A DNA stretch of 61,684 bases from Blautia sp. (lineage in GTDB: Bacteria; Bacillota; Clostridia; Lachnospirales; Lachnospiraceae). The translations under genes and the position numbers were made by a program. Under the pieces are notes generated by a model that did not search any database, had not been told where the DNA came from, and worked only from the letters and a program-made list of their open reading frames with translations. The DNA lies in contig JAFUCO010000102.1 of NCBI GenBank assembly GCA_017459635.1, forward strand, positions 1 to 61,684. The letters run 5' to 3'. Below are positions 3,182 to 39,288 of this stretch, piece after piece. How positions within the stretch are numbered: position 1 is the first letter of the stretch; the number at the start of each line of letters is the position of its first letter.

Positions 3182-3223
3182 ATCTTTCTCCTTAATACCT
3201 GAACAGTAACGTGCGCATTACTT

Positions 3224-3745: not shown

Positions 3746-3776
3746 ATAAGTCTCCCTCTACAATTAATAAGCCGTA

Positions 3777-7059: not shown

Positions 7060-7061
7060 AA

Positions 7062-7096: not shown

Positions 7097-7164
7097 TTGT
7101 TTGCTTATAACCGTTCAGAACAGTTATGATTTCTTTTCTTATTTGGTTTTTGTGTTTTGTTCTT

Positions 7165-7398: not shown

Positions 7399-7541
7399 AT
7401 TAATCACTCATCCCTTCTGTATTATTTTTAAAATTGTAATTATCTGCGGCCGCCCGTTTATTCCGGGCGATCATCTGTATTTCTCTTTTCTGTTTTTATA
7501 TACGTGCCAGAAGGGAACATTCCACGCACTATTTACTCGAT

Positions 7542-7841
7542 TTACTCGATCGTCAAAATATCCGAGAATCCTGTTACGTCAAAGATTTCCTTCACATCTT
7601 CCGATGCATTCTTAACTACCATGCTACCCTGCTTGTTCATGACCTTCTGGGCTGTAAGCAGTACCCTGAGACCTGCGCTCGATATATACTTGAGCTGCGC
7701 CATATCAAAGACAAGCTCCTCAACACCGTTCAGAGATTCATTAAGTTCACTCTCAAGCACCGGTGATGTGATGGTGTCAAGCCTTCCCTCGAGCGCTATC
7801 GTAAGCTTACTTCCATTCAGGTCCTTATTAATATTCAGCAT
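7542..7841 (-). CDS. STAS-domain anti-sigma factor antagonist
   Basis: This is a 99-residue single STAS domain of the SpoIIAA/RsbV kind. The phospho-acceptor region is YISSAGLRVL, with candidate serines at 54 and 55. Unphosphorylated proteins of this type bind and neutralise an RsbW/SpoIIAB-type kinase, and SpoIIE-type phosphatases reactivate them. All three partner types are encoded within 15 kb (RsbW-like at 12817-13224; phosphatases at 122-1870 and 13226-14860). The gene has its own promoter and is cut off from the upstream ABC genes by a 195-bp palindromic element. Confidence 0.92.
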   Translation of the reverse strand: MLNINKDLNGSKLTIALEGRLDTITSPVLESELNESLNGVEELVFDMAQLKYISSAGLRVLLTAQKVMNKQGSMVVKNASEDVKEIFDVTGFSDILTIE

Positions 7842-7877
7842 TGTTCTCCTTTTCTCCTTTCTGAAACACTGGGATAA

Positions 7878-7907
7878 ATTATATCATAACATTGTAAGCA
7901 TATGCAA
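7878..7907 (-). promoter_or_regulatory. Promoter of the STAS gene
   Basis: On the minus strand TTGCAT and TATAAT are 18 bases apart. The start codon at 7841 lies about 30 bases after the predicted start site, with a purine-rich ribosome site (GGAGAAAAGGAGAAC). Confidence 0.6.
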
Positions 7908-7933
7908 TGTCAATCGCCAAAATTAAGATTTTC

Positions 7934-8128
7934 GTTACTATTCACGGCCCAGCCGCAAGCGGCTGGGTCTGAGCCCTCCATTCGGAATCTCGCCCTTACG
8001 GGCTTTATCGCCGTTTCACGAAAAAGATTCCTCATGAAGGGCTCAGACCCTGTAAGGAAATATACTCTGCTCTGCTCATGCAAGCATGGCAGAGCAGAGT
8101 ATATTTCCTTACGGCCGTGAATAGTAAC
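7934..8128. repeat. 195-bp multi-branched palindromic element
   Basis: The ends are perfect 16-bp inverted repeats (GTTACTATTCACGGCC at 7934, its complement ending 8128). Inside are four further stems: CCCAGCCG/CGGCTGGG (7948-7967), GGGTCTGAGCCCT (7965-7977 with 8038-8050), GGAATCT/AGATTCC (7984-7990 with 8025-8031), and a 24-bp perfect stem (8052-8075 with 8089-8112). A shrunken relative with the same ends is at 22741-22770. It is probably a non-coding mobile element (MITE-like). It fills most of the 294-base gap between the STAS gene and the ABC gene. Confidence 0.8.
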
Positions 8129-8135
8129 AGATTTT

Positions 8136-10325
8136 CTACACCTGCTGCCTTGCCACCATATCTGCGAACAGTCCCTTTTTCGCCATCAGTTCATCATATG
8201 TTCCTTCCTCGAGCACCTTTCCTTCGCCCAGATACAGTATCCTGCTGCAGCTTTTTATGGTCGACAGCCTGTGCGCTATCACCAGCCTGGTACAGTGCAG
8301 CTCGTCCAGTGCCTGTGTCACCTTTTTCTGGGCAATATTGTCAAGCGCCGAGGTTGCTTCGTCAAAAATTAGTATCGATGGCTTAGGAGCTATCGCCCTT
8401 GCTATCATCAGTCTCTGCTTCTGCCCGCCGGAAATGCCTCCCTGCCCTTCCGAGATCATGGTATGCATTCCCATAGGCATATCGCGTATATCGTCAGCTA
8501 TGCAGGCAGTTTCCGCTGCTGCCCAGGCATCGTCAAGTGTAATGTAAGGCGCTGATATTGCGATATTGGCAAAAATACTGTCATTAAACAGCCCGCCATT
8601 CTGCATTACCGTGCCTATCTGCCTTCGCAGTGATCGCAGGTCTATCTGGTCTATGTTTTTCCCGTCGTAAAAGATGGATCCCCTTTCCGGAGTCTCAAAC
8701 CCCAGCAGCAGCCTCATCAGAGTCGATTTGCCGCAGCCCGAAGGGCCCACTATGGCAACATATTCACCTTTCCTGATCTTCAGAGAAAGATTATCAATGA
8801 CCTTCTTTCCGCCTTTCTCATAGCTGAAGGTTACATTGTCCATCTCAATGCCGCCTTTAAGCTCCGTCATCACCTGTCCCCTGCCGCCGGTCTCGGGAAC
8901 TGTCGAAAGGATAGGTGATGCCATGTCAAGCACCGGCTTAATGCGGGCAAAAACCATGACCACACCCGCCAGGGATGTGAAGGCCCCCATAACCATTCCA
9001 TAGGCCGCATTAAAAGACATGTAATCCTTCATCTTGACAGAGGATGCTATGGCGATGGCATAAAGGACTATCGTTCCGATAAGCCTTATCCCTTCGCTCA
9101 GAACTGAGTTCACCTTCAGGATCCAGGGCGGATTATACTGAAGCTGCGCTGACCGGTTATAGAACCTTGCCCATCTGGCAAAGGTCCTTTTTTCCGCGCC
9201 GGAAAGCTTTATCTTCTGTATACCGTTTATCAGGGCGAAGGAGATTCCGAGCGTCTTTGCGTCGGCCTCCATTATGGATTTCTGCCTGTGGATCTCCATA
9301 AACATTGTCAGCACCGAAAGGCCTACCGTCAGAAGTATGATCACCAGTGAAGGTACCACGAGCGCCGGTGTGTAGTTGAAGATCTGCGTGATGTACAGAA
9401 GTGAAACTACCGATGTAAGTCCGGAGGACAGCACCGCGCTCACGATTGCGGAACAGAGCGAATTTACCGACTGCATCCTGGACGAAAGTTCACCTGAACT
9501 GTAGTTCCTGAAAAAGTCCGGCGGCAGCGACAGCACTCTCATCATGGCCGCCGATTCGATGCCCAGCTGGATCCTGGTCTGCACGCATCCTGTGACCAGT
9601 TCAGACCCGGTGTTTATGATCAGCATGCTTATCCTTGTGCACATCATGAAAACCGCCATGGCCACAAGCGCTGACACATTTTTGCTCTCCAGCACCGGTC
9701 CGTAAAGGATATTGGTGAGCCTCGGCACAAGCATTCCGGCTGCCATCACCAGCAGCGTAACCGCCAGTACCTTCAGAAAATCCGTAAGTCTCAGGCTTAC
9801 CAGAAGATATTTGATAAGATCCGGTATTCCTATTTTTTTCTGGGGAAAAGGCTTGTAGAAGCAATATGCCTCTTTTTTAAGCCTGGAACTGTTTTTCCTG
9901 TTGACCAGAAACCAGTCGCTTTTTATCGGATCATAGCATCTGTATCCCAGAAATCCTGCAGGGATCATGGCAACAGGCGTATCGTCCTCCTCAAAAAAAC
10001 CAAGCATGGCACCAAACGCATCATGCTGCCAGCCGTTTTCAAGCCGGACAAGCCTGTACATCATCCCCTGTGGGTGTATAACATAGTCAAGTTTTTCTTC
10101 AAGTGTTTTCAGCTTCTGCGGGGGTTCCTGGTACTTCATGTGGTAGTAACGAAGCACTCTTTCAAGGGCATCCGCCGTAAGCGCGCTTCTGTCTTCCCTG
10201 AAGGCGCCGTCACCCCCTGTAACCATTTCTGCCGCTTCCTGAAGGGAATCGCGGAACATCTGGTCATCATTTGTTTTCCGCTGACGGATCTGTTCGTCAA
10301 ACCAGCCCATCGTCATCGCGGACAC
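8136..10325 (-). CDS. NHLM-type export ABC transporter, second subunit
   Basis: This is a 729-residue ABC exporter. The start region GWFDEQIRQRKTNDDQMF is characteristic of the non-peptidase NHLM/NHLP transporter subunit. An N-terminal soluble region (to about 165) precedes a six-helix membrane domain (about 170-460). The ATPase has Walker A GPSGCGKST near 525, signature ISGGQKQRL near 630 and Walker B ILIFDEATSALD near 655. It would pair with the peptidase-bearing subunit encoded 50 bases upstream (10375-12810). Start codons GTG 10325, ATG 10316 and ATG 10310 are possible; the last best fits the family start. No close ribosome site is evident, which suggests coupling to the upstream gene. 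Confidence 0.9.
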   Translation of the reverse strand: MSAMTMGWFDEQIRQRKTNDDQMFRDSLQEAAEMVTGGDGAFREDRSALTADALERVLRYYHMKYQEPPQKLKTLEEKLDYVIHPQGMMYRLVRLENGWQHDAFGAMLGFFEEDDTPVAMIPAGFLGYRCYDPIKSDWFLVNRKNSSRLKKEAYCFYKPFPQKKIGIPDLIKYLLVSLRLTDFLKVLAVTLLVMAAGMLVPRLTNILYGPVLESKNVSALVAMAVFMMCTRISMLIINTGSELVTGCVQTRIQLGIESAAMMRVLSLPPDFFRNYSSGELSSRMQSVNSLCSAIVSAVLSSGLTSVVSLLYITQIFNYTPALVVPSLVIILLTVGLSVLTMFMEIHRQKSIMEADAKTLGISFALINGIQKIKLSGAEKRTFARWARFYNRSAQLQYNPPWILKVNSVLSEGIRLIGTIVLYAIAIASSVKMKDYMSFNAAYGMVMGAFTSLAGVVMVFARIKPVLDMASPILSTVPETGGRGQVMTELKGGIEMDNVTFSYEKGGKKVIDNLSLKIRKGEYVAIVGPSGCGKSTLMRLLLGFETPERGSIFYDGKNIDQIDLRSLRRQIGTVMQNGGLFNDSIFANIAISAPYITLDDAWAAAETACIADDIRDMPMGMHTMISEGQGGISGGQKQRLMIARAIAPKPSILIFDEATSALDNIAQKKVTQALDELHCTRLVIAHRLSTIKSCSRILYLGEGKVLEEGTYDELMAKKGLFADMVARQQV

Positions 10326-10374
10326 AGCTTATGTTTTTTAACAGCATTTCAAAGCCCCGTCCGCTTCCTCCCCT

Positions 10375-12810
10375 CTACTCATTAGTCACCAGAGAGGTGT
10401 AAAGCCCTCCCTTGGCATACAGTTCCTCGTGTGTGCCTCTCTCCACCACTTTTCCGTGATCCATCACAAGTATTTCGTCACAGTCACGGATAGTAGAGAG
10501 CCTGTGAGCTACCACGATGCAGGTGATGCCTCTGTCCGTAATAGCTTTTACTACATTATATTCCGTCTTTGCATCGAGGGCTGAAGTTGCCTCGTCAAGT
10601 ATTATGATCGTAGGATCCTGCGCAAGCACCCTGGCAAGCTCAAGCCGCTGCCTCTGTCCGCCCGAAAGGTCATTGCCGCCTTCTGTAAGCCTGCTTTCGT
10701 ATCCGCCCTCTCTCTGCATGATATCATCATGGATCTGGGCATCACGGGCAGCCATTATTACTTCAAAGTCCTCGATAGTGTTGTCCCACATCCGGATGTT
10801 AGCTGCAATGGTATCCTCGAAAAGTACTATATCCTGGTCTACGACCGCAAGCGAACCTGTAAGTACACTCCTGTCGATCTGCCGCACAGGGATACCGTCA
10901 AAAAGGATCTCACCTGTCCAGGGCTCATATAATCCCGAGATAAGCTTGGCTATCGTCGACTTGCCGCAGCCTGAGGCCCCGACAAAGGCTACCCGGCTGC
11001 CGGGTTTGATATGTATCGAAAAATCCTCGATCAGCGGAGGCCGCAGAGTCGCATAGCCGAAGCTTATGTTTCTGATCTCAACCTCGCCGGAGAGCTTGCG
11101 GTAGTCTGTCGACGCAGCAGGTTTTATTCCTGCTGCAGCTGCAGCCTTGCCGGTTGTCCCTGCTGCTGTGCCTTGCGCCGCTGAGCCTGACATATCTGCT
11201 GCACCTGCGGCCTTGCCGGTTCCCCCTGCTGCTGTGCCTTGCGCCGCTGCACCTGACGTATCTGCTGCACCTGCGGCCTTGCCGGTTCCCCCTGCTGCTG
11301 TGCCTTGCGCCGCTGAGCCTGACATATCTGCTGCTTCTGCGCCTGCTGAACCTGCCGGTTCGGCAGCTGCAGATATATATGCTGAAGCCGGATCATCCGG
11401 GTATTCCATGACATCTTCAACGCGCTCCATGTCCGTGCGCATTTCCTGTATGGTCTGCCCTGCGCTTATCAGCGTTGAAACCGGTCCCATGAACGAGGTC
11501 AGATATGCCTGGAAGGAGTAGATCATACCTACAGTAAACTCCCCCTGCATAACCAGAAAGATACCCATTATCATGACCAGGATATCCGCCACCGCGGAAA
11601 GGCACGGGCCTATAAGTCCAAAGGTTATCCCTATCCTCTGGAAATTAACGCTCTGTTCATTGACAGATGCCTGCAGCCCCGACCATTTCCGGAAGAAACC
11701 GTCCTCGGCTCCACTTGCCTTGATGGTTTCTATCATACGTATCCCGTTCATTGTCAGACTGCTGAGCTTTCCGGTATCTCTCTGCTGTACCCTGGTAATA
11801 TTCACGCGCTTCCCGGATATTATTATGGAATTCAGCAGGTTCACCGACATGCATATGACGCCTATCAGAGTCAGCATCAGGCTCTGCCTCAGCATTACCG
11901 TAAGATATACCACCATCATTACAGTATTTAAAAGGAGCGGCGCAAACGTATTAACAAGAGTACCCGCAATTGATGCGTTGGTAGACTGTCTCTGGAGTAT
12001 ATCCCCCGTCATACGCTGTGAAAAGAACTCCATCGGAAGCCTCAGGATCTTCCACATGTAAGTCATGTTTCCGACTACGGCCATCTTGCCCTGGATGCGC
12101 AGCGAATACACCGCCTGTATCCAGGCTACGACCAGCTGGGCAAACGCCAGCAGGAACATAATGACCAGGAACATAACTACCCAGTCCGGATTCCGTCCCT
12201 GAAGGAACCTGTCCATAAAAGTACGCGTCATGGCCGGGTTGATAAGCCCGAATGCAGCACTGATCACCGAAACCAGTATAGTGAAAGCCATTGCCGCGCC
12301 GGTGCCTTCAAGTCGTTTCTTCGCAAATTCAAAAACGCTTTTTTTCTTTCCGGAGGGCTCAAAGTCTTCACCGGGCTCAAACATCATGATCACGCCGGTA
12401 AAGCCTTTGTCAAACTCCTCCTCGGAAATGACGACCTTCCCGCGGGCAGGATCGTTCAGATAAACCTTGCCTCTTTTGAACCCGTCAAGCACCACAAAGT
12501 GATTGAACTCCCAATGAATGATGCAGGGAAAGATCGCACTCTCCTTAACCATCGAAGGCTCGCCCTTAAATGCATTTGCCGTCAGGCCGTAGCTGCGGGC
12601 GGCAAGCAGAATGCTCATGGCGTTCGAACCATCGCGCGAAACGCCGCAGTCCTTACGCACCTGTTCCAGCGGGATCCACTTATCGTAATATGCCAGCACC
12701 ATCGTAAGGCAGGCCGCCCCGCATTCCAGAGCTTCCATCTGCATCACCACCGGTACCCTGGCCACCCGGCCATGTACAGGCTGTTTTACGCTGTTACCGT
12801 TTTTACTCAT
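10375..12810 (-). CDS. NHLM-type ABC exporter with C39 leader peptidase
   Basis: This is an 811-residue peptidase-permease-ATPase. Residues 15-145 are a C39 peptidase that cuts after double-glycine leaders: catalytic Cys30 in ALECGAACL, His104 in NHFVVLDG, Asp120 in YLNDPARG. A six-helix membrane domain follows (about 165-465), then the ATPase with Walker A GASGCGKST near 610, LSGGQRQRL near 715 and IIILDEATSALD. Residues about 480-560 are an unusual Ala/Gly/Thr-rich linker of three 22-residue repeats between the membrane and ATPase domains. The gene starts 7 bases after the RsbW-like gene, so the two are one operon. Its likely cargo includes the GG-leader SH3b protein at 2137-2418. Confidence 0.94.
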   Translation of the reverse strand: MSKNGNSVKQPVHGRVARVPVVMQMEALECGAACLTMVLAYYDKWIPLEQVRKDCGVSRDGSNAMSILLAARSYGLTANAFKGEPSMVKESAIFPCIIHWEFNHFVVLDGFKRGKVYLNDPARGKVVISEEEFDKGFTGVIMMFEPGEDFEPSGKKKSVFEFAKKRLEGTGAAMAFTILVSVISAAFGLINPAMTRTFMDRFLQGRNPDWVVMFLVIMFLLAFAQLVVAWIQAVYSLRIQGKMAVVGNMTYMWKILRLPMEFFSQRMTGDILQRQSTNASIAGTLVNTFAPLLLNTVMMVVYLTVMLRQSLMLTLIGVICMSVNLLNSIIISGKRVNITRVQQRDTGKLSSLTMNGIRMIETIKASGAEDGFFRKWSGLQASVNEQSVNFQRIGITFGLIGPCLSAVADILVMIMGIFLVMQGEFTVGMIYSFQAYLTSFMGPVSTLISAGQTIQEMRTDMERVEDVMEYPDDPASAYISAAAEPAGSAGAEAADMSGSAAQGTAAGGTGKAAGAADTSGAAAQGTAAGGTGKAAGAADMSGSAAQGTAAGTTGKAAAAAGIKPAASTDYRKLSGEVEIRNISFGYATLRPPLIEDFSIHIKPGSRVAFVGASGCGKSTIAKLISGLYEPWTGEILFDGIPVRQIDRSVLTGSLAVVDQDIVLFEDTIAANIRMWDNTIEDFEVIMAARDAQIHDDIMQREGGYESRLTEGGNDLSGGQRQRLELARVLAQDPTIIILDEATSALDAKTEYNVVKAITDRGITCIVVAHRLSTIRDCDEILVMDHGKVVERGTHEELYAKGGLYTSLVTNE
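11145..11342. repeat. 66-bp in-frame tandem repeats in exporter linker
   Basis: Three copies of a 66-bp unit begin at 11145, 11211 and 11277. They encode 22-residue blocks of the form SAAQGTAAGGTGKAAGAAD. The copies are nearly identical in DNA, so they arose recently. Confidence 0.9.
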
Positions 12811-12816
12811 ATCCCA

Positions 12817-13224
12817 TTAAAGCCTTTTTTTCATTGTAAGTATATTGTGACCGTCCTTGTACTCATAGTTGATCTCATCCATGCTTTTCTTGGCAAGGAA
12901 GATTCCAAGACCGCCTATCTTGCGTTCTTCCGCGGACAGCGTCACATCCGGATCATCTTTGGCGAGCGGGTCATAAGGCTTGCCATGATCAATAAAAGAA
13001 AGTACAACCGAAAGCGGATCCTCCTGCACCTCAACACGTATCTGTGCAGGGCCAACATCCGGGATATATGCATAGTTGGCTATATTGATGAAGATCTCTT
13101 CAACAGCCATATCGATCTGCATCTGCACTTTCATCGGGCAGTCGGCTTTTTCGATCTCCTCATCAACAAACGCAAGTACCTGAGGCAGATTTTCTGTTGT
13201 TGCCTGAATATCAAGTTCTTTCAT
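12817..13224 (-). CDS. RsbW/SpoIIAB-like anti-sigma kinase
   Basis: This is a 135-residue GHKL-type ATPase of the anti-sigma family. The ATG at 13224 follows the phosphatase stop codon by one base and has AAAGGA upstream. Visible motifs are an N box in VEEIFINIANYAY (about 44-56), a G1 box DHGKPYDP, and a G2-like GGLGIFLAKKSMDEI. Proteins of this type phosphorylate a STAS partner and bind a sigma factor or another output protein. It is translationally coupled to the SpoIIE-type phosphatase upstream and followed after 6 bases by the exporter gene. Confidence 0.9.
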   Translation of the reverse strand: MKELDIQATTENLPQVLAFVDEEIEKADCPMKVQMQIDMAVEEIFINIANYAYIPDVGPAQIRVEVQEDPLSVVLSFIDHGKPYDPLAKDDPDVTLSAEERKIGGLGIFLAKKSMDEINYEYKDGHNILTMKKRL

Positions 13225-13225
13225 G

Positions 13226-14860
13226 TTAATTTCCTTTCCCCGGTTCCGGTCCATTATATCTAAGGCAAAGCATTGTAATATCATCAAACTGCTCTGCCCC
13301 GTCCGCAAATCCTATGATCGCGTCCTTTACGTTATGTAAAACTGTTTCTGGATCCGCCTCCGGATCTTTATTTAACACTTTGATCATACGGTCGGTTCCG
13401 AACAATTGCTCCTGCGGGTTGCAGGCTTCCGGAACTCCGTCAGTATATACAAATAGACAGTCGCCCGGTTCAAGCCGGAAGCTGTGCCCGGGGTACCTTA
13501 TATCCTCTATTGCGCCTACTACCGGGGAGTGTCTGTATACCTGAAGGGCATACTCACCGCCGCGCCTCCGGAGTGCCGGATGTTCATGCCCTGCGTTGCA
13601 GGCAATTCCGGTTCCGGTCGATATCTCCAGCACTGCGCCCCATAGTGTTACGAACATATCGGTGGAATTGTCCATTACAAGCTGGTTGTTCACGCTTTCC
13701 AGAACCTCACTGAGGCTCTCGCCATCAATCAGCTTGTTCTGGATAAGAGTCTTCGAAACCATCATGAACAGAGCTGCCGGGATTCCTTTGCCCGATACAT
13801 CAGCTATAATAAGGGCAAGATGATCATCATCTATCAGAAAGAAATCATAGAAATCTCCCCCCACTTCCCTTGCCGGATCCATCGAGGCATAAATGTCAAA
13901 TTCTTTCCTGTCAGGAAAAGCGGGAAACTTCATTGGCAGCTGGCTTTTCTGAATATCCTGCGCCATACGGAGCTCAGTCCGGCTGCGTTCCTTCTCCGCT
14001 GCTGCCCGGGTCTGTTCTTCCATGAAGTCAGTTATCTGTTCCTCCATCTTGTCGATGGCCCCGGCCAGAAGTCCTATATCATCATTATTCCTAATATCAT
14101 CTGAAAGCTTTTTTTCTTTGATTGAGCTCTCTTCCGCAAAACGAAGCGTCTCATCAGTGATCTTTTTCACCGGCTCCAGGACCACCCTGTACAGGTACAG
14201 GCCCTGCCCCGCCATAATGATGATTATCAGCAGGACCAGTGCGGCTGCAACCGTCCTCACATAAGTCCTGCGAGAGATCTCGAACGAATCCATCTGGCGC
14301 TGGACACACAGGATAGCGGTAGTGCTTCCGTCCGACCCCTTAAGCGGAACCATTGCAGTAATGTGGGCACCGGTATCTACGTATCCGGTGTTTCTGAGCA
14401 CCACTTCCCTGTTCGATTCTCCTTCGCACAGAAGACGGTACTTATGCTTGTAATCGTCATTGGTCGTCTCCCGGACATATCCGAAATCAAAAACCGTATA
14501 TTCACTCTCATGATTGATCGTCGAAAACAGGAAAGTAATATGTTCATAGTCCGTCCGGTCAGGAAGTATAACATATATGAAGGTCGACCTCGAAGCATTG
14601 CAAAGAAGGTCAAAATTGGTAAGGGTCATCATATAATCTTCCGATTTGCCGCCGCTGTCATAATACTCATCGATCTTATCGGGATCTATCCCCAGGATCG
14701 CAATGTCCGCGATCCTGAAAGCATCACTCTCGAAATCCCTGAGCATTACATTGGTAAGCCACTTATAGCCAATACCGCCCGCCACCGTGAAAACGAGTGT
14801 AAGCAGCAGCACAATTCCTGCAATGCTCTTGACCGCAATATTCTTTCTAATTCTGTTCAT
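13226..14860 (-). CDS. Membrane sensor SpoIIE/PP2C-type phosphatase with HAMP
   Basis: This is a 544-residue membrane phosphatase. It has a TM near 12-34, an external sensing region of about 170 residues (with LLCNASRSTFIYVILPD, reminiscent of a double Cache sensor), a second TM near 203-228, a HAMP linker to about 280, and a SpoIIE domain with GGDFYDFFL near 335, DVSGKGIPAALF, and QFDDITML at the end. The first gene of an operon with the RsbW-like kinase and both NHLM ABC genes, it would pass an outside signal to the STAS protein by dephosphorylation. It is a paralogue of the phosphatase at 122-1870 but with a different external domain. Confidence 0.93.
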   Translation of the reverse strand: MNRIRKNIAVKSIAGIVLLLTLVFTVAGGIGYKWLTNVMLRDFESDAFRIADIAILGIDPDKIDEYYDSGGKSEDYMMTLTNFDLLCNASRSTFIYVILPDRTDYEHITFLFSTINHESEYTVFDFGYVRETTNDDYKHKYRLLCEGESNREVVLRNTGYVDTGAHITAMVPLKGSDGSTTAILCVQRQMDSFEISRRTYVRTVAAALVLLIIIIMAGQGLYLYRVVLEPVKKITDETLRFAEESSIKEKKLSDDIRNNDDIGLLAGAIDKMEEQITDFMEEQTRAAAEKERSRTELRMAQDIQKSQLPMKFPAFPDRKEFDIYASMDPAREVGGDFYDFFLIDDDHLALIIADVSGKGIPAALFMMVSKTLIQNKLIDGESLSEVLESVNNQLVMDNSTDMFVTLWGAVLEISTGTGIACNAGHEHPALRRRGGEYALQVYRHSPVVGAIEDIRYPGHSFRLEPGDCLFVYTDGVPEACNPQEQLFGTDRMIKVLNKDPEADPETVLHNVKDAIIGFADGAEQFDDITMLCLRYNGPEPGKGN

Positions 14861-15008
14861 TTAACGCTGCCCTCCGGGCAATATCAGATGGCTGCACATA
14901 TAAATGGCACACTCTCCCGCCACACGGAAGCCGCACAGCTACGGTGCCGGATATTATACAGAACCAATATATCATGATTTCAGCAAAACAACAAGTGGAA
15001 AACACAAA

Positions 15009-15095
15009 GGGCGGTTGCTCTGTGCTAATAATCAGCACAGAATAAGACAGGGGACGGTTCTCTGTCTTATGACAGAGAACCGTCCCCTGTCTTAA
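15009..15095. repeat. REP-like palindrome, compound copy
   Basis: A small hairpin (TCTGTGCT/AGCACAGA) abuts a full palindrome of the family GACAGGGGACGGTTCTCTGT with its inverted copy. It lies between two divergent operons. Confidence 0.85.
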
Positions 15096-15164
15096 GTGCC
15101 GGATTACAGAGTGCTGCACCATGTTAATATCGGGGATTGTTTTTTTTTATTGGAAATGATAGGA

Positions 15165-15170
15165 TATAAT
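15165..15170 (+). promoter_or_regulatory. -10 box of the alcohol dehydrogenase gene
   Basis: TATAAT lies 82 bases before the ATG. The expected -35 position falls in a T-run (TTTTTTTTAT), so the -35 box is poor. Confidence 0.45.
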
Positions 15171-15251
15171 TCGTAATGTGTGCTTCCTGCAACACTTCTC
15201 AACGGAGTTATGGCAGCATACAAAAGATCATCAATTCAGGAGGATAAATAA

Positions 15252-16397
15252 ATGGCTGACAGAATCGTACTCAATACCGTATCTTATCACGGCTCAGGTG
15301 CAATCAAAGAGATCATCGGCGAAGCTCAGAGAAGAGGCTTCAAGCATGTATTTGTATGCTCTGACCCGGACCTGGTCAAATTTAAAGTTACTGCAAAAGT
15401 GACGGATCTTCTTGACGAAGCATCCATTCCATATACAGTATATTCAGGGATCAAACCGAACCCCACAATCGAAAACGTACAGGAAGGTGTTGCTGCATTC
15501 AAGGCCTGCGGCGCTGACTCCATCATCACCATCGGCGGCGGTTCTTCCATGGATACCGCAAAAGCCATCGGCATCATCATCACCAATCCTGAGTTCGAGG
15601 ATGTACGCTCACTTGAAGGCGTAGCTCCGACAAAGAACCATGCAGTTCCGACCATCGCTGTTCCTACCACAGCCGGCACCGCTGCCGAAGTTACCATCAA
15701 CTACGTTATCACAGATGTTGAGAAGCAGCGCAAATTCGTGTGCGTCGACACAAACGATATACCGGAAGTAGCCGTTGTTGATCCGGATATGATGGACTCC
15801 ATGCCAAAAGGCCTCACCGCTTCAACCGGAATGGACGCTCTTACACATGCTATCGAAGGTTATACCACAAGGGCAGCATGGGAGCTTACCGATATGTTCC
15901 ATCTCGAAGCCATCAAGCTCATCGGCCAGAACCTCCGCGGCGCTGTCGCCAATACACCTGAAGGCCGCAAGGGCATGGCAATGGCTCAGTACATCGCAGG
16001 AATGGGCTTCTCAAACGTAGGCCTTGGAATTGACCACGCAATGGCTCACACACTCAGCGCTCACTATGACACACCGCACGGAGTAGCCTGCGCTATGTTC
16101 CTTCCTATTACAATGGAATTCAACAAAGAATACAGCGGTGAAAGATATCGCGAGATCGCCCGCGCCATGGGAGTAAAAGGCGTTGACGACATGAGCCAGG
16201 AAGAATACCGCCAGGCAGCCATCGATGCAGTGCGCAAGCTCTCCATCGACGTAGGAATCCCCGTAAAGAACGAAAAGATCCGCGAAGAAGATCTTGACAT
16301 CCTCGCCGAAGACGCCCTCGCAGATGCCTGCTATCCCGGCAACCCGAGAGAAGCGACAAAAGAACAGGTTATTGAAATGTTCCGGAAGCTTATGTAA
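15252..16397 (+). CDS. Iron-containing alcohol dehydrogenase (FucO/DhaT-like)
   Basis: This is a 381-residue group III alcohol dehydrogenase, a cytoplasmic NAD(P)-linked enzyme that uses Fe2+ to interconvert small alcohols or diols and aldehydes. The cofactor-binding motif GGGSSMDTAKAIG lies near 95-107. The iron ligands sit in GMDALTHAIEGY (about 195-206) and GIDHAMAHTLSAHYDTPHG (about 257-275). An AGGAGG ribosome site is 7 bases before the ATG. It is closest in look to lactaldehyde reductase or 1,3-propanediol dehydrogenase. No propanediol or fucose pathway gene is adjacent, so the substrate cannot be fixed. The gene is alone and ends in a strong terminator. Confidence 0.93.
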   Translation: MADRIVLNTVSYHGSGAIKEIIGEAQRRGFKHVFVCSDPDLVKFKVTAKVTDLLDEASIPYTVYSGIKPNPTIENVQEGVAAFKACGADSIITIGGGSSMDTAKAIGIIITNPEFEDVRSLEGVAPTKNHAVPTIAVPTTAGTAAEVTINYVITDVEKQRKFVCVDTNDIPEVAVVDPDMMDSMPKGLTASTGMDALTHAIEGYTTRAAWELTDMFHLEAIKLIGQNLRGAVANTPEGRKGMAMAQYIAGMGFSNVGLGIDHAMAHTLSAHYDTPHGVACAMFLPITMEFNKEYSGERYREIARAMGVKGVDDMSQEEYRQAAIDAVRKLSIDVGIPVKNEKIREEDLDILAEDALADACYPGNPREATKEQVIEMFRKLM

Positions 16398-16444
16398 TTA
16401 AAACAACAAGAACTGAACAAAAGAAACGGTTACTGGAACACGGA

Positions 16445-29612: not shown

Positions 29613-32129
29613 CTATCTCACAATGATATCTGCCTTTATAACGCAGTTTCCCTTCTCTACAGCTCCCAGATCAAGTTTATTCGTAAACTGACCATCTTCA
29701 AATTTCAGTAAATACGGAACTGGTTTCCCCAAAGGAACAGTAAATCTTTCATACTGAAAATATGTTTGTGCAGCAAATGTATCATCCAGATATAATTCAA
29801 CTGTAGAGTTTTTCCATCCTATTATACGTTTTCCGGTTCTGTTCACAAGATAGCCCTGTGCATACATACAGTTCTCTTTATAATAGACCTTATTGAGAAC
29901 AAATATAAGCCCGTTTCCTTTTACCTGTGCAAATGCCTGGCCAGCCTTGAGAGCCGCGTCAAACAGATTTCTTCTTACAGTTACTTCACAGTAACTGTCA
30001 TCAACAGCATCTACAATTCTTATGATTCGAGTTGTTCCAAGGTTTTTGGCTCTGACATACCCTTCTTCAACTGCCGCTATTCCTGAATTCTCAGATACAC
30101 ATTTAACATTTTTATCAGAAGGAGCATAATTACCGGGAAAAAGACTTTCGAGAGAAATCTTTCTCCCTTTAGTTACTGCCTTTTCCCTGCATTGAGTGTT
30201 ACTGACAATACACCCCTGACCGGCTGATTGACTCAGCATTACATGATCTGACCCCGGTCCGACTTGCGGAGTTGCCATACCTGACATCGTCGTTGATGAA
30301 TTCGAATCCGGCCTGGAGTTGCCATCCGGTGTTGGAGCCGGTGACGGGGTCAGTGTCGGGAGCGGTATTGTTAAACGTGCATCTTGACTCTGTGTGTCTG
30401 TCTTTGTTGAATTATTTCCATTGACAGTATTCACGTCCTGTATTGAAGCATCACTTCCCGATTGGTCAATTTCATACCTGCCTGTCCTTGATTCCAGTGT
30501 ATAATTGCCAGTATCTGCATATCCCGCATCATTATCATAATTCTCTTCAATATTATTACTGTCAGCCTCATTAACCGGCAGCACATTATAAAAATAATCC
30601 CTGTCATTATATCCCGGAAGAGCCGTATCATTTGCAGCTTCATTTTGATGTTTGCTTAATAATTCACCATATCCCGGTTCAGGTGCTTCAGTGATATTTC
30701 CTTTTTCCAATTCAGTATTGGTTCCTGAGACGCCACGCTCACTTTGTTTTTCCGGAACACGAAATGATTCCTCCACTACACCTTCCAGAACCTGTGCAGT
30801 AATGTTTCCGGATACGACACCTGTATCTAAAGTGTCTGTGGCTTCCTGCCTGACAGAATTGCCATGCATCTCTCCGGATCCGCCCCTTGCCAATTGTACC
30901 TGAAGCTCAGTATCATGCATCTGAACCGCATTTTCTGGGACTGTGGCTTCACTTATGATCCCCATATCGAAAGCGCCTGTTTCTGCTGTTTCAGCATTCT
31001 CCGCCGTATGACCGGTTTGATTCCAGTTACCATTCGCAAGAATTCCTGACGTCAGACTTTCAGTCACTTTTCCCAGCGGGGTTGATTTTATATAATCTCT
31101 TGTACTTGGATTACTCAGTGTGAAACCTGTCCCCAAAGCTGCTGCCACCACAGAAGCTGCTGCAAGCCGCCTCCATATGCTCTGGCTGACTCTTCGTTTA
31201 TACTTACCTGACTGGATTTTTTTAAGCGCGCTTTGCAGCGCCTGTTTAAACTCCTGTGCAGACTGATATCTGTCCCTGCTATGGTAAGCCACTGCTTTCA
31301 GCACGACCTTCGCAACAACGGAAGATGCATTGACCGGTGCCGGCATATGCTCTCCCTTCATTCTGCGGCTTAAAGCTTCCTCTTTATCCTTATAATAGAC
31401 GAGCTGTTTTTCAGTATCAAGAAATGGATCCCTGTTCTTATTCAGCAGTTTATAGACGACTATCCCCAGTGAATAAATGTCAGCAGTGATTCCGTATTTT
31501 CTCCCATGATAGATTTCGGGAGCCATATAGGTAAAAGTACCTTTGGCCGAATAACTGCCCACTGTCATCTTAATCTGACGTGCAACTCCGAAATCGCCAA
31601 GCTTAAAATGCTGCTGGTCTGTTACAAAGATATTATCAGGCTTTATATCCCGGTGGATAATATCTGACCTTTCACAGATTTCCAGTGCAGAGCAGATATC
31701 AATTGCCATCTTAAGGACATCCTGCTCGGTCATCTGCTTTTCTGTATAATAATCCGTGAAGCTTTTTAGATATTCCATCCTGATATAGATAGTCCACCCT
31801 ATCTTATCCTGATGTTCTTCGACAATATAATCCTCTATAGAAACGATGTTTTCATTGCCCTTCAGTTCGTTCATGAACTGAATTTCCTTCATGTAATCTG
31901 CGATCATATCTTCGAAATAAAGCTTTACAGATTCACTGCCCCTGAACTCCCGAATAAGCTGAATGACATCACTCTCATCCGATGGAATATCTATGACCTT
32001 TACTGCGCTTCTTAAAGTACCCTGTCCGTCATTTTTTTCTGCAAGATATACGCTGCCGTATGCACCCTCTCCTATCAGGTCGGTCAGGGCCCAGCCGCCC
32101 CATTGTTCCGGAATCTGCCGATCTGCCAT
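29613..32129 (-). CDS. Membrane Ser/Thr protein kinase with external domain
   Basis: This is an 838-residue PknB-like kinase. The cytoplasmic kinase domain (about 10-305) has all key motifs: glycine loop IGEGAYGSVYLAE, Lys in SAVKVID, IIHRDIKPDNIF, LGDFGVARQ and MAPEIYHG. A basic stretch and one TM segment (about 320-342) follow, then a long Ser/Thr/Asn-rich external linker (to about 620), an Ig-like part (VKCVSENSGIAAVEEGYVRA, TTRIIRI) and a C-terminal beta-rich domain (about 725-838). It lacks PASTA repeats, so the signal differs from muropeptide-sensing PrkC. Ribosome site GGGGGAAAG. It is followed by a conserved partner gene. Confidence 0.92.
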   Translation of the reverse strand: MADRQIPEQWGGWALTDLIGEGAYGSVYLAEKNDGQGTLRSAVKVIDIPSDESDVIQLIREFRGSESVKLYFEDMIADYMKEIQFMNELKGNENIVSIEDYIVEEHQDKIGWTIYIRMEYLKSFTDYYTEKQMTEQDVLKMAIDICSALEICERSDIIHRDIKPDNIFVTDQQHFKLGDFGVARQIKMTVGSYSAKGTFTYMAPEIYHGRKYGITADIYSLGIVVYKLLNKNRDPFLDTEKQLVYYKDKEEALSRRMKGEHMPAPVNASSVVAKVVLKAVAYHSRDRYQSAQEFKQALQSALKKIQSGKYKRRVSQSIWRRLAAASVVAAALGTGFTLSNPSTRDYIKSTPLGKVTESLTSGILANGNWNQTGHTAENAETAETGAFDMGIISEATVPENAVQMHDTELQVQLARGGSGEMHGNSVRQEATDTLDTGVVSGNITAQVLEGVVEESFRVPEKQSERGVSGTNTELEKGNITEAPEPGYGELLSKHQNEAANDTALPGYNDRDYFYNVLPVNEADSNNIEENYDNDAGYADTGNYTLESRTGRYEIDQSGSDASIQDVNTVNGNNSTKTDTQSQDARLTIPLPTLTPSPAPTPDGNSRPDSNSSTTMSGMATPQVGPGSDHVMLSQSAGQGCIVSNTQCREKAVTKGRKISLESLFPGNYAPSDKNVKCVSENSGIAAVEEGYVRAKNLGTTRIIRIVDAVDDSYCEVTVRRNLFDAALKAGQAFAQVKGNGLIFVLNKVYYKENCMYAQGYLVNRTGKRIIGWKNSTVELYLDDTFAAQTYFQYERFTVPLGKPVPYLLKFEDGQFTNKLDLGAVEKGNCVIKADIIVR

Positions 32130-34009: not shown

Positions 34010-34963
34010 ATGAATTATATTAATTTACCGGAAAAATGGAATGATTGGACATTGACAGAACAGACAGGTCAGGGTTCTTCTGGTTCTGTATATCTTGCTC
34101 TGAGACGAACCGGCGAGGTTATCGAAAAATCTGCCATCAAGATTATTCATGTTTCAGCAGAAAATGATGAAAAGGCTGCACTGTTTTCTCTTTTTGGGCG
34201 TATTGATGCTGCAAAGAAATATGCAAAAGAACTGCTCCAGGCACATCTTACCGAAATCAGGATCATGGAGACTTTAAAAGAGAATCCGCATATCGTACAG
34301 ATTCAGGATTATGATATTCAGGAGTCGCCGGATCATATGTCATATACTGTTTTTATAAAAATGGAGTATCTTCAGACACTGGAAGAGCACCTGGGACAGA
34401 TCTATGCATCATACAGTAATCTACCGCAGATGCCCGAAGACAATAATCCGCCGCAGATGCCCGAAGAATACATCGATGAGATCAGAGCACTTGGATGTGA
34501 TATATGTGATGCTCTGGATGCCTGTCATAAACATAATATAATTCATCGCGATATAAAACCGGCTAACATTTTCTGGTCCGAAAAGGACGGTTATAAGCTT
34601 GGTGATTTTGATGCTGCATGCATCAAAGGTGAACCCTTGGACACCGATACTTCCACAGGGACCTTATTATATATGTCGCCCGAAATATTTAAAAGAGAGC
34701 CGTTCGATCATACCTCTGATCTGTACTCTCTTGGTATCCTCATGTATAAATATTTGAATAATAACCTCATTCCCTTCATTACAGAAACGGACAGCAGCAA
34801 TATCCATCAGGTAAGAAAAGCATTTGAGCTGAGAATGTCCGGCAAAGAGCTGCCGCTTCCATATTACAAGGGAGCTATTACGTCTCCTGTAATGACAGCC
34901 TGCAGGTTCTGTCCGGATCAGCGTTTTCAAAGCGCTATGATATTTAAAGATGCATTACTTTAA
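34010..34963 (+). CDS. Ser/Thr protein kinase with DFD in place of DFG
   Basis: This is a 317-residue soluble kinase: essentially only the kinase domain, with no TM segment. Motifs are the glycine loop GQGSSGSVYLAL, Lys in SAIKIIHV, HNIIHRDIKPANIFW, then LGDFDAACIKG where the Mg-binding motif DFG reads DFD (GAT codon at about 34609), and MSPEIFKREPFDHTSDLYSLG. A Pro/Gln-rich loop with a duplicated PQMPED/PQMPEE (about 141-157) interrupts the middle. It resembles the kinase domain of 29613-32129. Loss of the DFG glycine may reduce or alter activity. It starts from an AGAGAGG ribosome site, divergent from the CAP gene. Confidence 0.9.
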   Translation: MNYINLPEKWNDWTLTEQTGQGSSGSVYLALRRTGEVIEKSAIKIIHVSAENDEKAALFSLFGRIDAAKKYAKELLQAHLTEIRIMETLKENPHIVQIQDYDIQESPDHMSYTVFIKMEYLQTLEEHLGQIYASYSNLPQMPEDNNPPQMPEEYIDEIRALGCDICDALDACHKHNIIHRDIKPANIFWSEKDGYKLGDFDAACIKGEPLDTDTSTGTLLYMSPEIFKREPFDHTSDLYSLGILMYKYLNNNLIPFITETDSSNIHQVRKAFELRMSGKELPLPYYKGAITSPVMTACRFCPDQRFQSAMIFKDALL

Positions 34964-35076: not shown

Positions 35077-37566
35077 TTATTTTACAGGATAAGCAATCTG
35101 GAACAGCAATCCTGGATCGAATATCGGTACGTTGACAGGATACTCTTCCATACTTGATATATCTTCCAGCTTAATAGCATCTCCCTCCAGTGTCACCTTA
35201 TGGAGTGGACCATTGAAGTATGTTGAAAATACAACCCCCGGCTTCTCTCCTGAGTGTAAACTGTATATACCATTGGGGATACGTCCACAACATATCAGCT
35301 TCCCGTTCCGGACTGTAAAAACAAAGGTCAGATCTGTTCTTATTTCCACCATCATTTCCGGAACTCCGTTCTTATCTATATCAACAACTCTGTACATCAT
35401 TGCATAACCACTGCCGTTAATGCCCAGATCATGCATAGATGCCTCTCCAAACAGTTTCGAGTAATACCGGATGCCATCTGAATCAGGATCTGAACCCTTA
35501 ATCTGTCCATAATTCATCAGATAGCATTCCATGGCTTTTGCGCTGTATAGCCTTATATAATCCTCGTTTTTGACAGATCGCTTACTTCTCCCTTCTTGCA
35601 GCATTGTCTTTAGGTCGCTTATCTGCTCAATGTTTATTAGCAGAGGCAAATCCGGTGTGGTTTCATAGCTTTCGGTACCACTTATTTGTCCATGCTCCAT
35701 CCAGGAATTTGTGAGCAGAGGGCAGTAGATAATTCTGTCCGGAGTCACCTCAGAGATCCATTCATCAGCTGATATTTCATTGCCATCCTTTCGCCAGGCT
35801 CCACTTTCACAGGAAAAGACTGCTGACTGTGTTTTTCCCTTCTCCATGTAATAGTTCCGGAATGACAGAAGTCCTTCTTCTGTGTGGTTGTATCTCATCT
35901 GGATAACTCTCTTCCCATTCAGATTATCCATCACAAGCAGATTGGCGATTCCGGCACGTCCGCCATCCATTGCATATATATGCTGCAGATCACCGACCGT
36001 ATTGCTTTCAAACAGAGTCTTTTTCTTGCCGTTCAATACTACGGCATTGTATCCGTCTCCTCCCGGAACATACGGAGAGCTTAACATTCCTGCAGTTGTT
36101 CCGTTTGGATATATCACCAAAAGATCATTTTTCCCGTCTCCATCATAATCAAAAACATCTGTTCCGCTTAACCCGTTCATAAACTGAAACCTGCCATACG
36201 AATCTTCGAGTAATGATGGCGTTCCATATCTGGATTCCATATCTTCTATTTCATCAGCATATGTTTTTGCCAGTTCTTTGTCACCACCACCTGCAACTAA
36301 AGTACCTACCGCACCGGTCAATACTGCTGTGCCAACCAACACTGCAATAGAAGGAACTTCTACTCCTTTAAATACAATGCTTCCCGTAACTGCCTTTCTG
36401 GCAAGTGCTGCAGCTTTACCGGCAGAAGCAGCAGACATTTTTCCTTTAATAAAAGAAATGGCTCCTTTTACAGTATTAGCTAATGCGCTGCCTCCTGCCG
36501 GTTGCCCGGCTGCTGCGCCGCCTGCGGCTCCGGCTGCTGTTCCTCCCGCAGCTCCGGCTGCTGTTCCTCCCGCTGCCCCCGCTGCTGTTCCTCCCGTGGC
36601 TCCGGCTGCTGTTCCTCCTGCGGCCCCCGCTGCTGTTGCTCCGGCTGCTGCGCCGCCTGCGGCCCCGGCTGCTGCCGATGCCCCGGCAGTCAATGCTTTC
36701 GCTCCAACAAGCTGCAGGACCGCTGCTTTGGTTGCTTCGGAAATGATCAAAGCGGCTTCTGTCTCTGTACTATATGCACCAAGCGCTGCAATAAAGAACG
36801 GGAATGGAAGCAAGTTGTGGAGACGTATACCCTGTTCTTTTTCCATCTTGAGGACCTGTTTTTCAATATTAGCCCGGCCGTATTTAAGTCTGCTCTTTAC
36901 AGTGTTCTCAGAAACATTAAGCTCACTGGCAATACTCTTAACGCTCATATCCTGGGAATAGTACATCATTATACATATGCGCTGTTCTTCAGGAGTGGAA
37001 AGGAGCATCTGATTCACAAGCACTGATACTTCTTTCCGATCAAAATATTCTGATGGATCATCCTTAATTGACGTTTTTTCACGAGTCGGATCAAAATCGA
37101 CTGCATCTAAGATCTCCTCATCGTCGAAAATCAAAGGACTATTCTTCCGAAGAATATCGATACATGTATTGCGGACGATCGCTGCACCCCACGCTTCAAA
37201 GCTCAGGGGATTCTCAAGCTTATCAAGAGATGAAAAAATCTTCACATAAGCATCCTGAAGAGCATCATCTATATCACCCTTTTTACTGGAGTACATCTGC
37301 TCTTTGCATATCATGTAGTACCTTTTGTAAGTTTTTTCATAGAGCCTGGTTATAGCAGTCTGATTATGCTCAGCCGCCATCCGGACCAGCGTAACCGTGA
37401 CCATTGCGTCAATGTCAAGGCCACAGCTGCTGCATTTTTCAGCAATTCCCGTAAAACCAGCTCCGCATATGGGACACTTTCTTATTGCCGGAAGTCCGCA
37501 GCGGCTGCAGAATATCTGTTTATCTGATATTATATTTCCGCATGAAATACAGGTTGTTTTACTCAT
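35077..37566 (-). CDS. Zinc-ribbon sigma factor fused to TM and external domain
   Basis: This is an 829-residue fusion. Two zinc ribbons come first (CISCG/CSRCG and CPICG/CSSCG, residues 6-48). A sigma-70 region 2 (about 60-145, DALQDAYVKIF, AAIVRNTCIDILRK) and region 4 (about 185-240, SVKSIASELNVSENTVKSRL) follow. Then comes a 60-residue Ala/Gly/Thr repeat (about 295-355), a TM segment near 403-427, and a 400-residue outer part starting with an FG-GAP-like calcium loop (DYDGDGKNDLLV) and ending PNVPIFDPGLLF-type sequence. The outer part resembles the secreted protein of the upstream gene. This looks like a membrane-tethered transcription factor in which the external domain could gate the sigma module. 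AAAGGAT lies before the ATG. Confidence 0.85.
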   Translation of the reverse strand: MSKTTCISCGNIISDKQIFCSRCGLPAIRKCPICGAGFTGIAEKCSSCGLDIDAMVTVTLVRMAAEHNQTAITRLYEKTYKRYYMICKEQMYSSKKGDIDDALQDAYVKIFSSLDKLENPLSFEAWGAAIVRNTCIDILRKNSPLIFDDEEILDAVDFDPTREKTSIKDDPSEYFDRKEVSVLVNQMLLSTPEEQRICIMMYYSQDMSVKSIASELNVSENTVKSRLKYGRANIEKQVLKMEKEQGIRLHNLLPFPFFIAALGAYSTETEAALIISEATKAAVLQLVGAKALTAGASAAAGAAGGAAAGATAAGAAGGTAAGATGGTAAGAAGGTAAGAAGGTAAGAAGGAAAGQPAGGSALANTVKGAISFIKGKMSAASAGKAAALARKAVTGSIVFKGVEVPSIAVLVGTAVLTGAVGTLVAGGGDKELAKTYADEIEDMESRYGTPSLLEDSYGRFQFMNGLSGTDVFDYDGDGKNDLLVIYPNGTTAGMLSSPYVPGGDGYNAVVLNGKKKTLFESNTVGDLQHIYAMDGGRAGIANLLVMDNLNGKRVIQMRYNHTEEGLLSFRNYYMEKGKTQSAVFSCESGAWRKDGNEISADEWISEVTPDRIIYCPLLTNSWMEHGQISGTESYETTPDLPLLINIEQISDLKTMLQEGRSKRSVKNEDYIRLYSAKAMECYLMNYGQIKGSDPDSDGIRYYSKLFGEASMHDLGINGSGYAMMYRVVDIDKNGVPEMMVEIRTDLTFVFTVRNGKLICCGRIPNGIYSLHSGEKPGVVFSTYFNGPLHKVTLEGDAIKLEDISSMEEYPVNVPIFDPGLLFQIAYPVK
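36485..36680. repeat. Ala/Gly codon repeat in the sigma fusion gene
   Basis: A GC-rich array encodes GGTAAGAA-type octapeptides (24-bp period, with four to five recognisable copies). It separates the sigma domain from the TM segment and produces long false frames on the other strand. Confidence 0.8.
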
Positions 37567-37619: not shown

Positions 37620-38942
37620 TCATTTACTGCAAACCAGCTGCCCCAGATTCTTTGGATAATCTGCTGTAACAGGAAGATCATAACCACTATTATCCGGCAC
37701 AAGATACTCTGCAATTTGTGAGTTATCAACATTAAATACTTCGTTATCCACGGATTCCTGATCATAAGGAAACTCTTTCAATAAGCCCGGGGCTGTTTCG
37801 CTGCCATACAATGTACCCCGATATACATTTGTGTTTCCGCAATATATCAGGTTCCCGTCTTTTACAGAAAAAACATAACAGGTTACATCAAAGTGACGGA
37901 TGTGATTGTTTATCATGAGTTCCGGGAATCCATCCTTGTTAATATCGTAAATTGCATAGTCGATGTACTGCAAAGACTGATAGTCGATAAAATCAGAATA
38001 CATTGCCTCATCAAATGAAGAAAGCGTTTCCTTCAGTATCCTTCCAACTTCTGTGTCTGAATAGTCCTCGTTAATATAATTCTGATGAGCGTAAATATTA
38101 TACAGAGCACTATGATTCTCATAAATGTCCAATATCAAAAGAAGCCTGCGGTAAAAATTTGTCATAGTATTATCCAGCAGTGGTACTTCTGTTTTTTCTC
38201 TTAAAAGCCCCTCCTCCAGCGAATCAATCGTTAACAATCCGCTGTCATTATTGTTTTCTGAATCCACATCATCCCAATGATTCCCAAATTCTGCCAGTTT
38301 CAGAAAATCTACAGGTTCATTTCCCAAAACTTCATCTATCCATGCATATCCATCTATAATTTCATCATTTTTCAAAAAGCCGCCTGAGCTGCATGAATAT
38401 CTGTCAGTAACTATATTGCCTCCATCCATAAAAGTATTATAATAAATGAGATTCTTCTGATTTCCCTGTTCAAATGCCGTAAACTGTAATACGTCTCCGC
38501 CTTGTTCCCTTCCGATTATATTTACAAACTTTCCGTACAATACTCCATACGAGTTCCTGGCATCCCCAAGCTGGTCAGTCTCATAAAGCAGTTCCGCTCC
38601 ATCCTCATTCGCCGACCATATCTGCAGCTTATATTGAGGCATTTCCATCATGGCTTCATTTTCAATTGATTCTGTGGAGCCTGTATAGTAGACTGTCAGC
38701 ATATCCTCGGCGCCATCACCGTTAAAATCCAGAAATGCAACACCGGAGAGTCCAGTTGCATACCAGTTACCTGTGCTTACCTGAGATCCCTGTTCTCCAT
38801 GTTCTTCCATTATCTCTTTTGCTACAGTATAGTAGGCCTCTGGAATAGTTGTGTCCTGTTTGTCCAATTCCTGTGCTGACCCGGCTGCTGCGGTTCCTAA
38901 TACAACTATCCCTATCATAATTCCCGTCAGAATCCTGTTCAT
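37620..38942 (-). CDS. Secreted FG-GAP-like protein, partner of sigma fusion
   Basis: This is a 440-residue secreted protein with a signal peptide (MNRILTGIMIGIVVLGTAAA) and an AGGAGG ribosome site. It contains calcium-loop-like segments FLDFNGDGAEDMLTVYY (about 75-91) and IYDINKDGFPELMI (about 335-348). Both match loops of the outer part of the sigma fusion encoded 54 bases downstream (VFDYDGDGKNDLLVIY and VVDIDKNGVPEMMVEI). Both proteins also share the pattern FSVKDGNLIYCG / FTVRNGKLICCG. They are therefore homologous over about 400 residues, and the pair probably arose by duplication. The gene may supply a soluble ligand, or a competitor of the membrane sensor. Confidence 0.82.
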   Translation of the reverse strand: MNRILTGIMIGIVVLGTAAAGSAQELDKQDTTIPEAYYTVAKEIMEEHGEQGSQVSTGNWYATGLSGVAFLDFNGDGAEDMLTVYYTGSTESIENEAMMEMPQYKLQIWSANEDGAELLYETDQLGDARNSYGVLYGKFVNIIGREQGGDVLQFTAFEQGNQKNLIYYNTFMDGGNIVTDRYSCSSGGFLKNDEIIDGYAWIDEVLGNEPVDFLKLAEFGNHWDDVDSENNNDSGLLTIDSLEEGLLREKTEVPLLDNTMTNFYRRLLLILDIYENHSALYNIYAHQNYINEDYSDTEVGRILKETLSSFDEAMYSDFIDYQSLQYIDYAIYDINKDGFPELMINNHIRHFDVTCYVFSVKDGNLIYCGNTNVYRGTLYGSETAPGLLKEFPYDQESVDNEVFNVDNSQIAEYLVPDNSGYDLPVTADYPKNLGQLVCSK

Positions 38943-39165: not shown

Positions 39166-39288
39166 TTATTGAATTGTCTTTCCGTCTGATTCTCTTTCAA
39201 CAAGAAATACTGAGCCATATGCTCCTTCACCTATCGGTTCTTTAACTACCCAGTCATCCCATTTTAGAGGCATAATAAACTCTGTCAT
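39166..39288 (-). pseudogene. Ser/Thr kinase N-terminal fragment (40 codons)
   Basis: An ATG with AAGGTGAG upstream opens a 40-residue frame: MTEFIMPLKWDDWVVKEP, then IGEGAYGSVFLVERESDGKT. It matches the start and glycine loop of the kinase at 29613-32129 (WALTDLIGEGAYGSVYLAE) and ends at a stop codon before the catalytic lysine. A terminator follows directly. This is the remnant of a kinase gene; whether the short peptide is made is unknown. Confidence 0.75.

Follow-up and report, generated by a model that had tools for sequence, protein, structure and literature searches.

The gene at 35077-37566 (reverse strand) of contig JAFUCO010000102.1 from Blautia sp. (assembly GCA_017459635.1; the whole stretch of 61,684 nucleotides is hereafter the window) encodes a predicted membrane-tethered sigma factor of the extracytoplasmic function (ECF) type, and by sequence comparison the same tethered layout recurs across numerous genera, both within the order and beyond it. 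Its single open frame starts with ATG and encodes 829 amino acids (aa). A sequence-only reading had described one chain with two zinc ribbons, sigma regions 2 and 4, an Ala/Gly linker, a transmembrane helix and an outer domain of about 400 residues, and the frame, the Pfam and NCBIfam matches and the motifs bear this out. We estimate at roughly 60% the probability that the protein is a one-piece transmembrane transcription switch, whose sigma part would be freed by cleavage on a signal. This estimate builds on the observed domains and their order, on a helix with a charge bias between its inner and outer sides, on the export-type starts of outer-domain homologues and on the recurrence of the layout. 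The outer domain would meet a ligand or respond to the state of the wall, while one helix would anchor the chain and hold the sigma part inside on a flexible Ala/Gly-rich arm. On a signal the chain would be cut, most likely first on the outer side and next inside the helix with its many small residues, in the style of site-2 proteases, release probably occurring by intramembrane proteolysis; the freed sigma part would then bind the RNA polymerase core and switch on its regulon. Sigma activity, the identity of the ligand, cleavage as the trigger, the identity of the protease and the genes controlled are what we infer. A site-2-protease homologue is present in the window genome, as it is in 14/14 control genomes, which makes it a weak pointer.

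Sigma70_r2 (2.3e-8) and Sigma70_r4_2 (2.4e-10) of Pfam both match above their cut-offs, and TIGR02937 covers residues 71-237 (1e-25, 90.3 bits for a cut-off of 42.9), so that by sequence the protein is an ECF-type sigma-70 factor. At the N-terminus, CxxC motifs start at residues 6, 20, 31 and 45; Zn_ribbon_3 matches two stretches, the best being residues 3-25 (28.5 bits, cut-off 27), and DZR over residues 6-49 reaches 22.6 bits, under its cut-off of 27.3. No His is found in residues 1-60 and no CxxC after region 4. The linker has A or G at 53/60 positions of residues 295-354, and the stretch that follows it is the best hydrophobic 19-mer (Kyte-Doolittle mean 2.15).

The location of the outer domain is supported by its homologues. 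The neighbouring gene 37620-38942 matches it with 26% identity over 332 residues (1.7e-16) and begins like a secreted protein, and a second homologue, L114 6645-8924 (L numbers designate the stretches examined), has a lipoprotein-like start; both starts were judged by eye. Because these homologues start like exported proteins, the window domain is placed outside. The same domain had been called FG-GAP-like, a label that is weakly supported: PF01839 scores 17.8 bits (E 0.0031) in the window protein, under its cut-off of 22.1, and 24.0 bits, above it, in the paralogue 37620-38942. Two calcium-loop-like motifs that fit D-x-[DN]-x-[DN]-G-x-x-[DE] start at residues 473 and 729, whereas 5000 shuffles of the domain gave a mean of 0.007 and none with two. 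A profile search of the outer domain against solved structures yielded no fold; three rows reached E 5 or lower, of which 9oee, matched over 20 residues (0.00093), was the best.

Recurrence was established at several taxonomic depths. With the ribbons and sigma part as query, five of 64 genomes of the genus scored above 100 bits, with frames of 568-833 aa in four; below these came a second piece from the fifth, broken one, G027 (60 bits), then matches of about 50 bits whose listed frames were mostly of 160-270 aa. In the order, the sigma query gave 32 matches at E<=1e-16 in 28/392 genomes, with frames of at least 448 aa in 27 and short ones in 5. These 27, together with long matches from genus, class, order and phylum searches, form a set of 51 members, window included, chosen by sigma similarity and long frame; short-frame matches served as plain controls, and the broken orthologue G027 and L205, which turned out plain, are left out. 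A profile, A4, built from 24 tethered members on the sigma part and the segment after region 4 (nine sigma columns are invariant across its 24 rows), was searched at E<=1e-42. In the order it matched 35 sequences in 27/392 genomes, all with frames of at least 404 aa (35/35; 14/14 outside the 21 training rows), and in the class 13 sequences in 11/283 genomes, again all of at least 404 aa (13/13; 10/10 outside the 3 training rows). Genomes G000, G104 and G136 are common to the order and class samples, and the two order samples (sigma query and A4) are of equal size and largely share their genomes, so the one does not independently confirm the other. Most of the weaker A4 matches listed for the phylum sample were plain frames near 200 aa.

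The 51 members present a sigma part, an Ala/Gly-rich linker and a helix, followed by outer domains of unrelated kinds. Against the refuting condition set in the sequence-only reading, some parts are indeed missing from homologues: ribbons are present in 11/51 members (two ribbons in the window only), a calcium loop in the outer domain in 10/51, and the window outer domain itself is rare (2/64 genus genomes and 2/295 order genomes, window counted in each). That a single chain unites sigma with a sensor-like domain is supported by these 51 members and by the export-like starts, as judged by eye, of the outer-domain homologues. When the most hydrophobic 19-mer is sought in the roughly 195 residues that follow region 4, its mean reaches 1.6 or more in 50/51 members (the choice made in L199 being doubtful), the charge just inside the helix exceeds that just outside in 42/51, and the 40 residues beyond it carry a mean net acidic excess of 6.6. 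Outer parts range from 33 to 1093 aa and include RCC1 repeats, WG repeats and the Listeria-Bacteroides repeat, with DUF5050 below its cut-off, in family scans of 42 out of 51 members (32 + ten; one in both, so 41 different). The gene L108 6618-8648 (-), for instance, has an RCC1-like array of seven stretches, and L100 carries two tandem tethered sigma genes, 4678-6870 and 6920-9088 (+), with related outer domains.

Could the sigma factor act while still tethered? A long arm would then reach RNA polymerase at the membrane and the outer domain would alter its reach or oligomer state with no cut, a mode of action likened to that of ToxR and CadC. The linker is indeed long, with a median of 51 aa in the family and 136 aa in the window, and its median charged fraction is 0.12 where that of the sigma part is 0.31, which suggests that it is probably flexible; moreover, the Pfam scan of the window protein recognised no anti-sigma domain after region 4 that would have to be removed. 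On the other hand, sigma must leave or travel with the polymerase after initiation, which is awkward for an anchored protein, cleavage is described for IutY, the analogue that has been characterised (PMC8999054), and the Ala and Gly content of the helix is unusually high. Over 48 members (L116, L199 and L204 left out), A+G amounts to 0.38 of the helix. Two sets of control segments, drawn solely from the window and L086-L117 with a slightly stricter cut, give 0.22 (25 single-helix segments) and 0.17 (144 multi-helix segments). GG or GAG occurs in 69% of family helices, against 24% and 5% of these controls. We regard tethered action as a serious though unlikely alternative. In the same 48 members the linker has a median A+G of 0.36, compared with 0.11 for the sigma part, and is the higher in 48/48; low complexity is not specific to it, the lowest 30-residue entropy having a median of 2.73 in linkers and 2.70 in outer parts.

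A functionless secondary gene fusion or an assembly artefact would draw on the state of the window genome (67% complete, 109 contigs) and on the closest orthologue, which is broken in its own assembly. Yet an identical layout is found in many genera inside and outside the order. In a tree built from 71 sigma domains, one branch (support 46) divides the tethered rows from the plain ones and the tethered label needs 1 change, against 23.3 in shuffles; in a tree of 115 rows (48 tethered; L095, L116 and L204 left out) it needs 3, against 36.8. Both trees are quick ones, on which a single origin of tethered sigma factors may be considered. We regard a functionless fusion or an artefact as hardly credible.

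Several points nevertheless weigh against the cleavage-released switch. The only close orthologue, in G027 (RUG14852), has an interrupted frame, one piece of which keeps four CxxC as in the window; the 51 members were selected for length before their anatomy was measured, and A4 was itself built from tethered members. The Pfam scan recognised no anti-sigma domain after region 4 that could hold the sigma part in check. Finally, a scan for ECF promoters upstream of 49 family genes found one of six patterns above shuffles (7/49, mean 1.9 and maximum 5 in 60 shuffle sets); another of the six, a sigma-70 form, gave 3/49 (mean 0.7, maximum 3). The positions are scattered and the window gene is not among the seven; autoregulation through an ECF promoter was dropped.

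In genome G1081, L190 2195-3502 encodes 435 aa with a ribbon, an Ala-rich linker, a helix and an outer domain, the sigma part being missing. It matches the sigma-bearing L191 2779-4749 (656 aa) at 71% over 24 residues in the ribbon and 52% over 159 in the helix and start of the outer domain; in phmmer, its residues 35-228 match residues 272-455 of L191 2779-4749 at 9.3e-63 (one pair). The adjoining L190 214-2109 is another tethered sigma gene, with ribbon and linker-helix common to both. In L116 7000-8016 (-), ribbon, region 2, helix and outer part are kept and region 4 is apparently lost, and by eye L117 8209-9036 comprises ribbons, helix and outer domain with no sigma part. The L190/L191 pair and L116 thus show, on sequence grounds, that one receptor scaffold can exist with or without the sigma part, gain being indistinguishable from loss. 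One may go further and see the receptor as primary, with sigma as a removable cassette in a ribbon-linker-helix-outer scaffold and perhaps an adaptor in some members. The L190 gene, L116 and L117 would all fit, but region 2 is matched in 32/32 and region 4 in 31/32 members of alignment A1, which suggests a kept sigma function, and we find this proposal highly doubtful.

Sigma-less ribbon-helix genes numbered 11 in 538 kb near tethered sigma genes (48 stretches, of which L114 has no tethered sigma) and 0 in 340 kb of control (20 stretches from 13 of the genomes). The difference has p 0.005 by gene and is 5/48 against 0/20 by stretch; L099 accounts for five of the 11, and another two are the kinases with a ribbon of L102, so the clustering is suggestive only. 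In L099, four consecutive sigma-less ribbon-helix-outer-domain genes (8782-16415, -) lie beside the tethered sigma gene 6919-8652 and a fifth (3006-3923, -) on its opposite side. The L102 kinases, 293-1630 and 2508-4124 (-), have an N-terminal zinc ribbon and lie near the tethered sigma genes 7067-8692 and 10004-11716; of the two, 2508-4124 alone has a clear membrane helix beyond its kinase part.

A further variant combines cleavage with a role for the arm. Glycine-rich stops spare part of NF-kappaB p105. Similarly, after a cut in the helix, a ClpXP-type protease could start at the new C-end, whose small residues would resemble the XAA ends of RsgI, and stall in the Gly/Ala tract, sparing sigma; sigma would be a cassette in a shared scaffold, and otherwise alike receptors of one cell would differ in carrying it or not. 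Since the inner piece of RsgI is destroyed by ClpXP, a tethered sigma factor would need such an escape from degradation. According to PMC9531181, ClpXP degraded all three tested titin variants more slowly when a 37-residue glycine-alanine tract was present, although its authors do not regard such tracts as strictly slippery. Of the family helices, 62% offer XAA-type ends, against 36% and 15% of the single- and multi-helix control segments, as expected anyway for Ala-rich helices. We hold this stop-signal role to be speculative and rather improbable.

Directly after region 4, many members show, among the alignment rows listed, the pattern G-x-[KR]-L-[YH]-x-x-A-P-x-P-[FL]-[FL]-L. A4 matches in the order reach model position 195 or beyond (of 203) in 32/35 cases, 21 of the 35 being training rows, and plain phylum matches, among those listed, end mostly near 172-188. 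Because the long-framed G683 (L203) has a match that stops at 176-177, the segment is not universal. As a literal pattern the segment discriminates less well than A4: the strict form is found in 13/51 members and in none of 42 distinct plain ECF proteins, the loose form in 23/51 members and in one of the 42. One guess is that the segment forms a docking or membrane-lying helix.

Table 1. Features of the tethered sigma gene and its upstream neighbour in the window.
Feature	Coordinates	Strand	Basis
Membrane-tethered ECF-type sigma factor (predicted), whole gene, 829 aa	35077..37566	-	Frame, Pfam, TIGR02937
Zinc ribbon 1, residues 6-23, CxxC...CxxC	37498..37551	-	Pfam and CxxC motifs
Zinc ribbon 2, residues 31-48, CxxC...CxxC	37423..37476	-	CxxC motifs; DZR 6-49 below cut-off
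Sigma region 2, residues 76-143	37138..37341	-	Pfam; columns invariant across A4
Sigma region 4, residues 191-232	36871..36996	-	Pfam
Hydrophobic segment directly after region 4, residues 243-262, KEQGIRLHNLLPFPFFIAAL	36781..36840	-	Family alignment/profile
Ala/Gly-rich linker, residues 271-406, 136 aa, 60% A+G	36349..36756	-	Family anatomy
Tandem 24-bp in-frame repeats coding for the A/G tract	36505..36687	-	Sequence
Membrane helix (predicted), residues 407-425	36292..36348	-	Hydrophobicity
Outer domain, residues 426-829, 404 aa	35080..36291	-	Homologues, calcium-loop-like motifs
Calcium-loop-like motif DYDGDGKND, residues 473-481	36124..36150	-	Pattern
Calcium-loop-like motif DIDKNGVPE, residues 729-737	35356..35382	-	Pattern
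Outer-domain homologue, 440 aa, signal-peptide-like N-terminus (by eye)	37620..38942	-	53 bp upstream, same strand

Homologous outer-domain neighbours were seen for the window, L098 and L194, the three outer domains being mutually unmatched; the L098 match is leucine-rich-like by eye and possibly reflects repeat similarity. A special pairing of tethered sigma genes with a free outer-domain copy was rejected (4/36 tethered sigma outer domains against 22/176 other genes, Fisher p 0.68), in a control that counts genes with a close same-strand neighbour; the L100 sigma pair accounts for two of the four, and for at least 3 of the 22 the match is with a tethered sigma gene. Two Hanks-type protein kinases, 29613-32129 (-) and 34010-34963 (+), lie just downstream of the window sigma gene. 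Upstream of 37620-38942, a 40-codon remnant (39166-39288, -) reads MTEFIMPLKWDDWVVKEPIGEGAYGSVFLVERESDGKTIQ then a stop, like the start of a Hanks-type kinase, and by eye resembles that of 29613-32129. Kinases are not enriched near tethered sigma genes (3 near, 1 in controls, p 0.50).

A search of titles and abstract starts returned nothing on tethered sigma factors of Clostridia and no paper combining Lachnospiraceae, ECF sigma factor, transmembrane and C-terminal; the 2021 ECF reclassification lay outside this search, and the family may already carry a group number in it. If the cleavage-released switch is correct, it would represent a recurrent and simple signalling design outside Actinobacteria, with membrane sensor and sigma in one chain, in which the inner part is constant and the outer domain (RCC1, WG repeats, calcium-loop types and others) is exchanged. 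Portable one-gene sensors for anaerobes are a possible use.

The anti-sigma part of IutY-type factors (ECF243) is FecR-like. As a rule, sigma factors are indeed either free or bound by an anti-sigma factor of their own, but ECF factors tethered within one chain have already been described, namely ECF48, ECF52 and ECF53 of Actinobacteria and IutY of Pseudomonas (PMC8999054; PMC5826349). ECF52 (SCO4117, Streptomyces), ECF48 and ECF53 resemble the window protein in uniting an ECF sigma part, a membrane helix and a long outer sensor-like part; for ECF52, release by proteolysis has been proposed (PMC5826349; PMC8999054). In both ECF52 and the window protein the helix follows the sigma part. However, ECF52 was reported to be exclusive to Actinobacteria, whereas the window belongs to Lachnospiraceae, and the zinc finger of ECF52 lies in the extension after sigma, where neither Pfam nor CxxC motifs indicate one in the window protein, whose ribbons are N-terminal (best stretches within 3-49) and optional in the family. 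ECF52 also has a Pro-rich outer stalk and a carbohydrate-binding module, compared here with an Ala/Gly-rich inner arm and no carbohydrate module in the Pfam scan. IutY of Pseudomonas putida, the example that has been characterised, likewise joins sigma and a membrane regulator in one chain and is released through the action of Prc and RseP (PMC8999054); no anti-sigma family of this fused type is in the window Pfam list or among the 25 of 90 NCBIfam rows listed. Finally, the SigI-RsgI system of Clostridium thermocellum (PMC12203970) also has an outer sensor and one helix, with a cut by RseP, after which the inner piece of RsgI is destroyed by ClpXP via XAA ends. There, two proteins are involved and the anti-sigma factor RsgI is destroyed to free SigI, whereas here the part to be freed would sit on the cleaved chain itself, which poses a testable question, that of a membrane cut whose inner piece is kept although AAA+ proteases often destroy such pieces.
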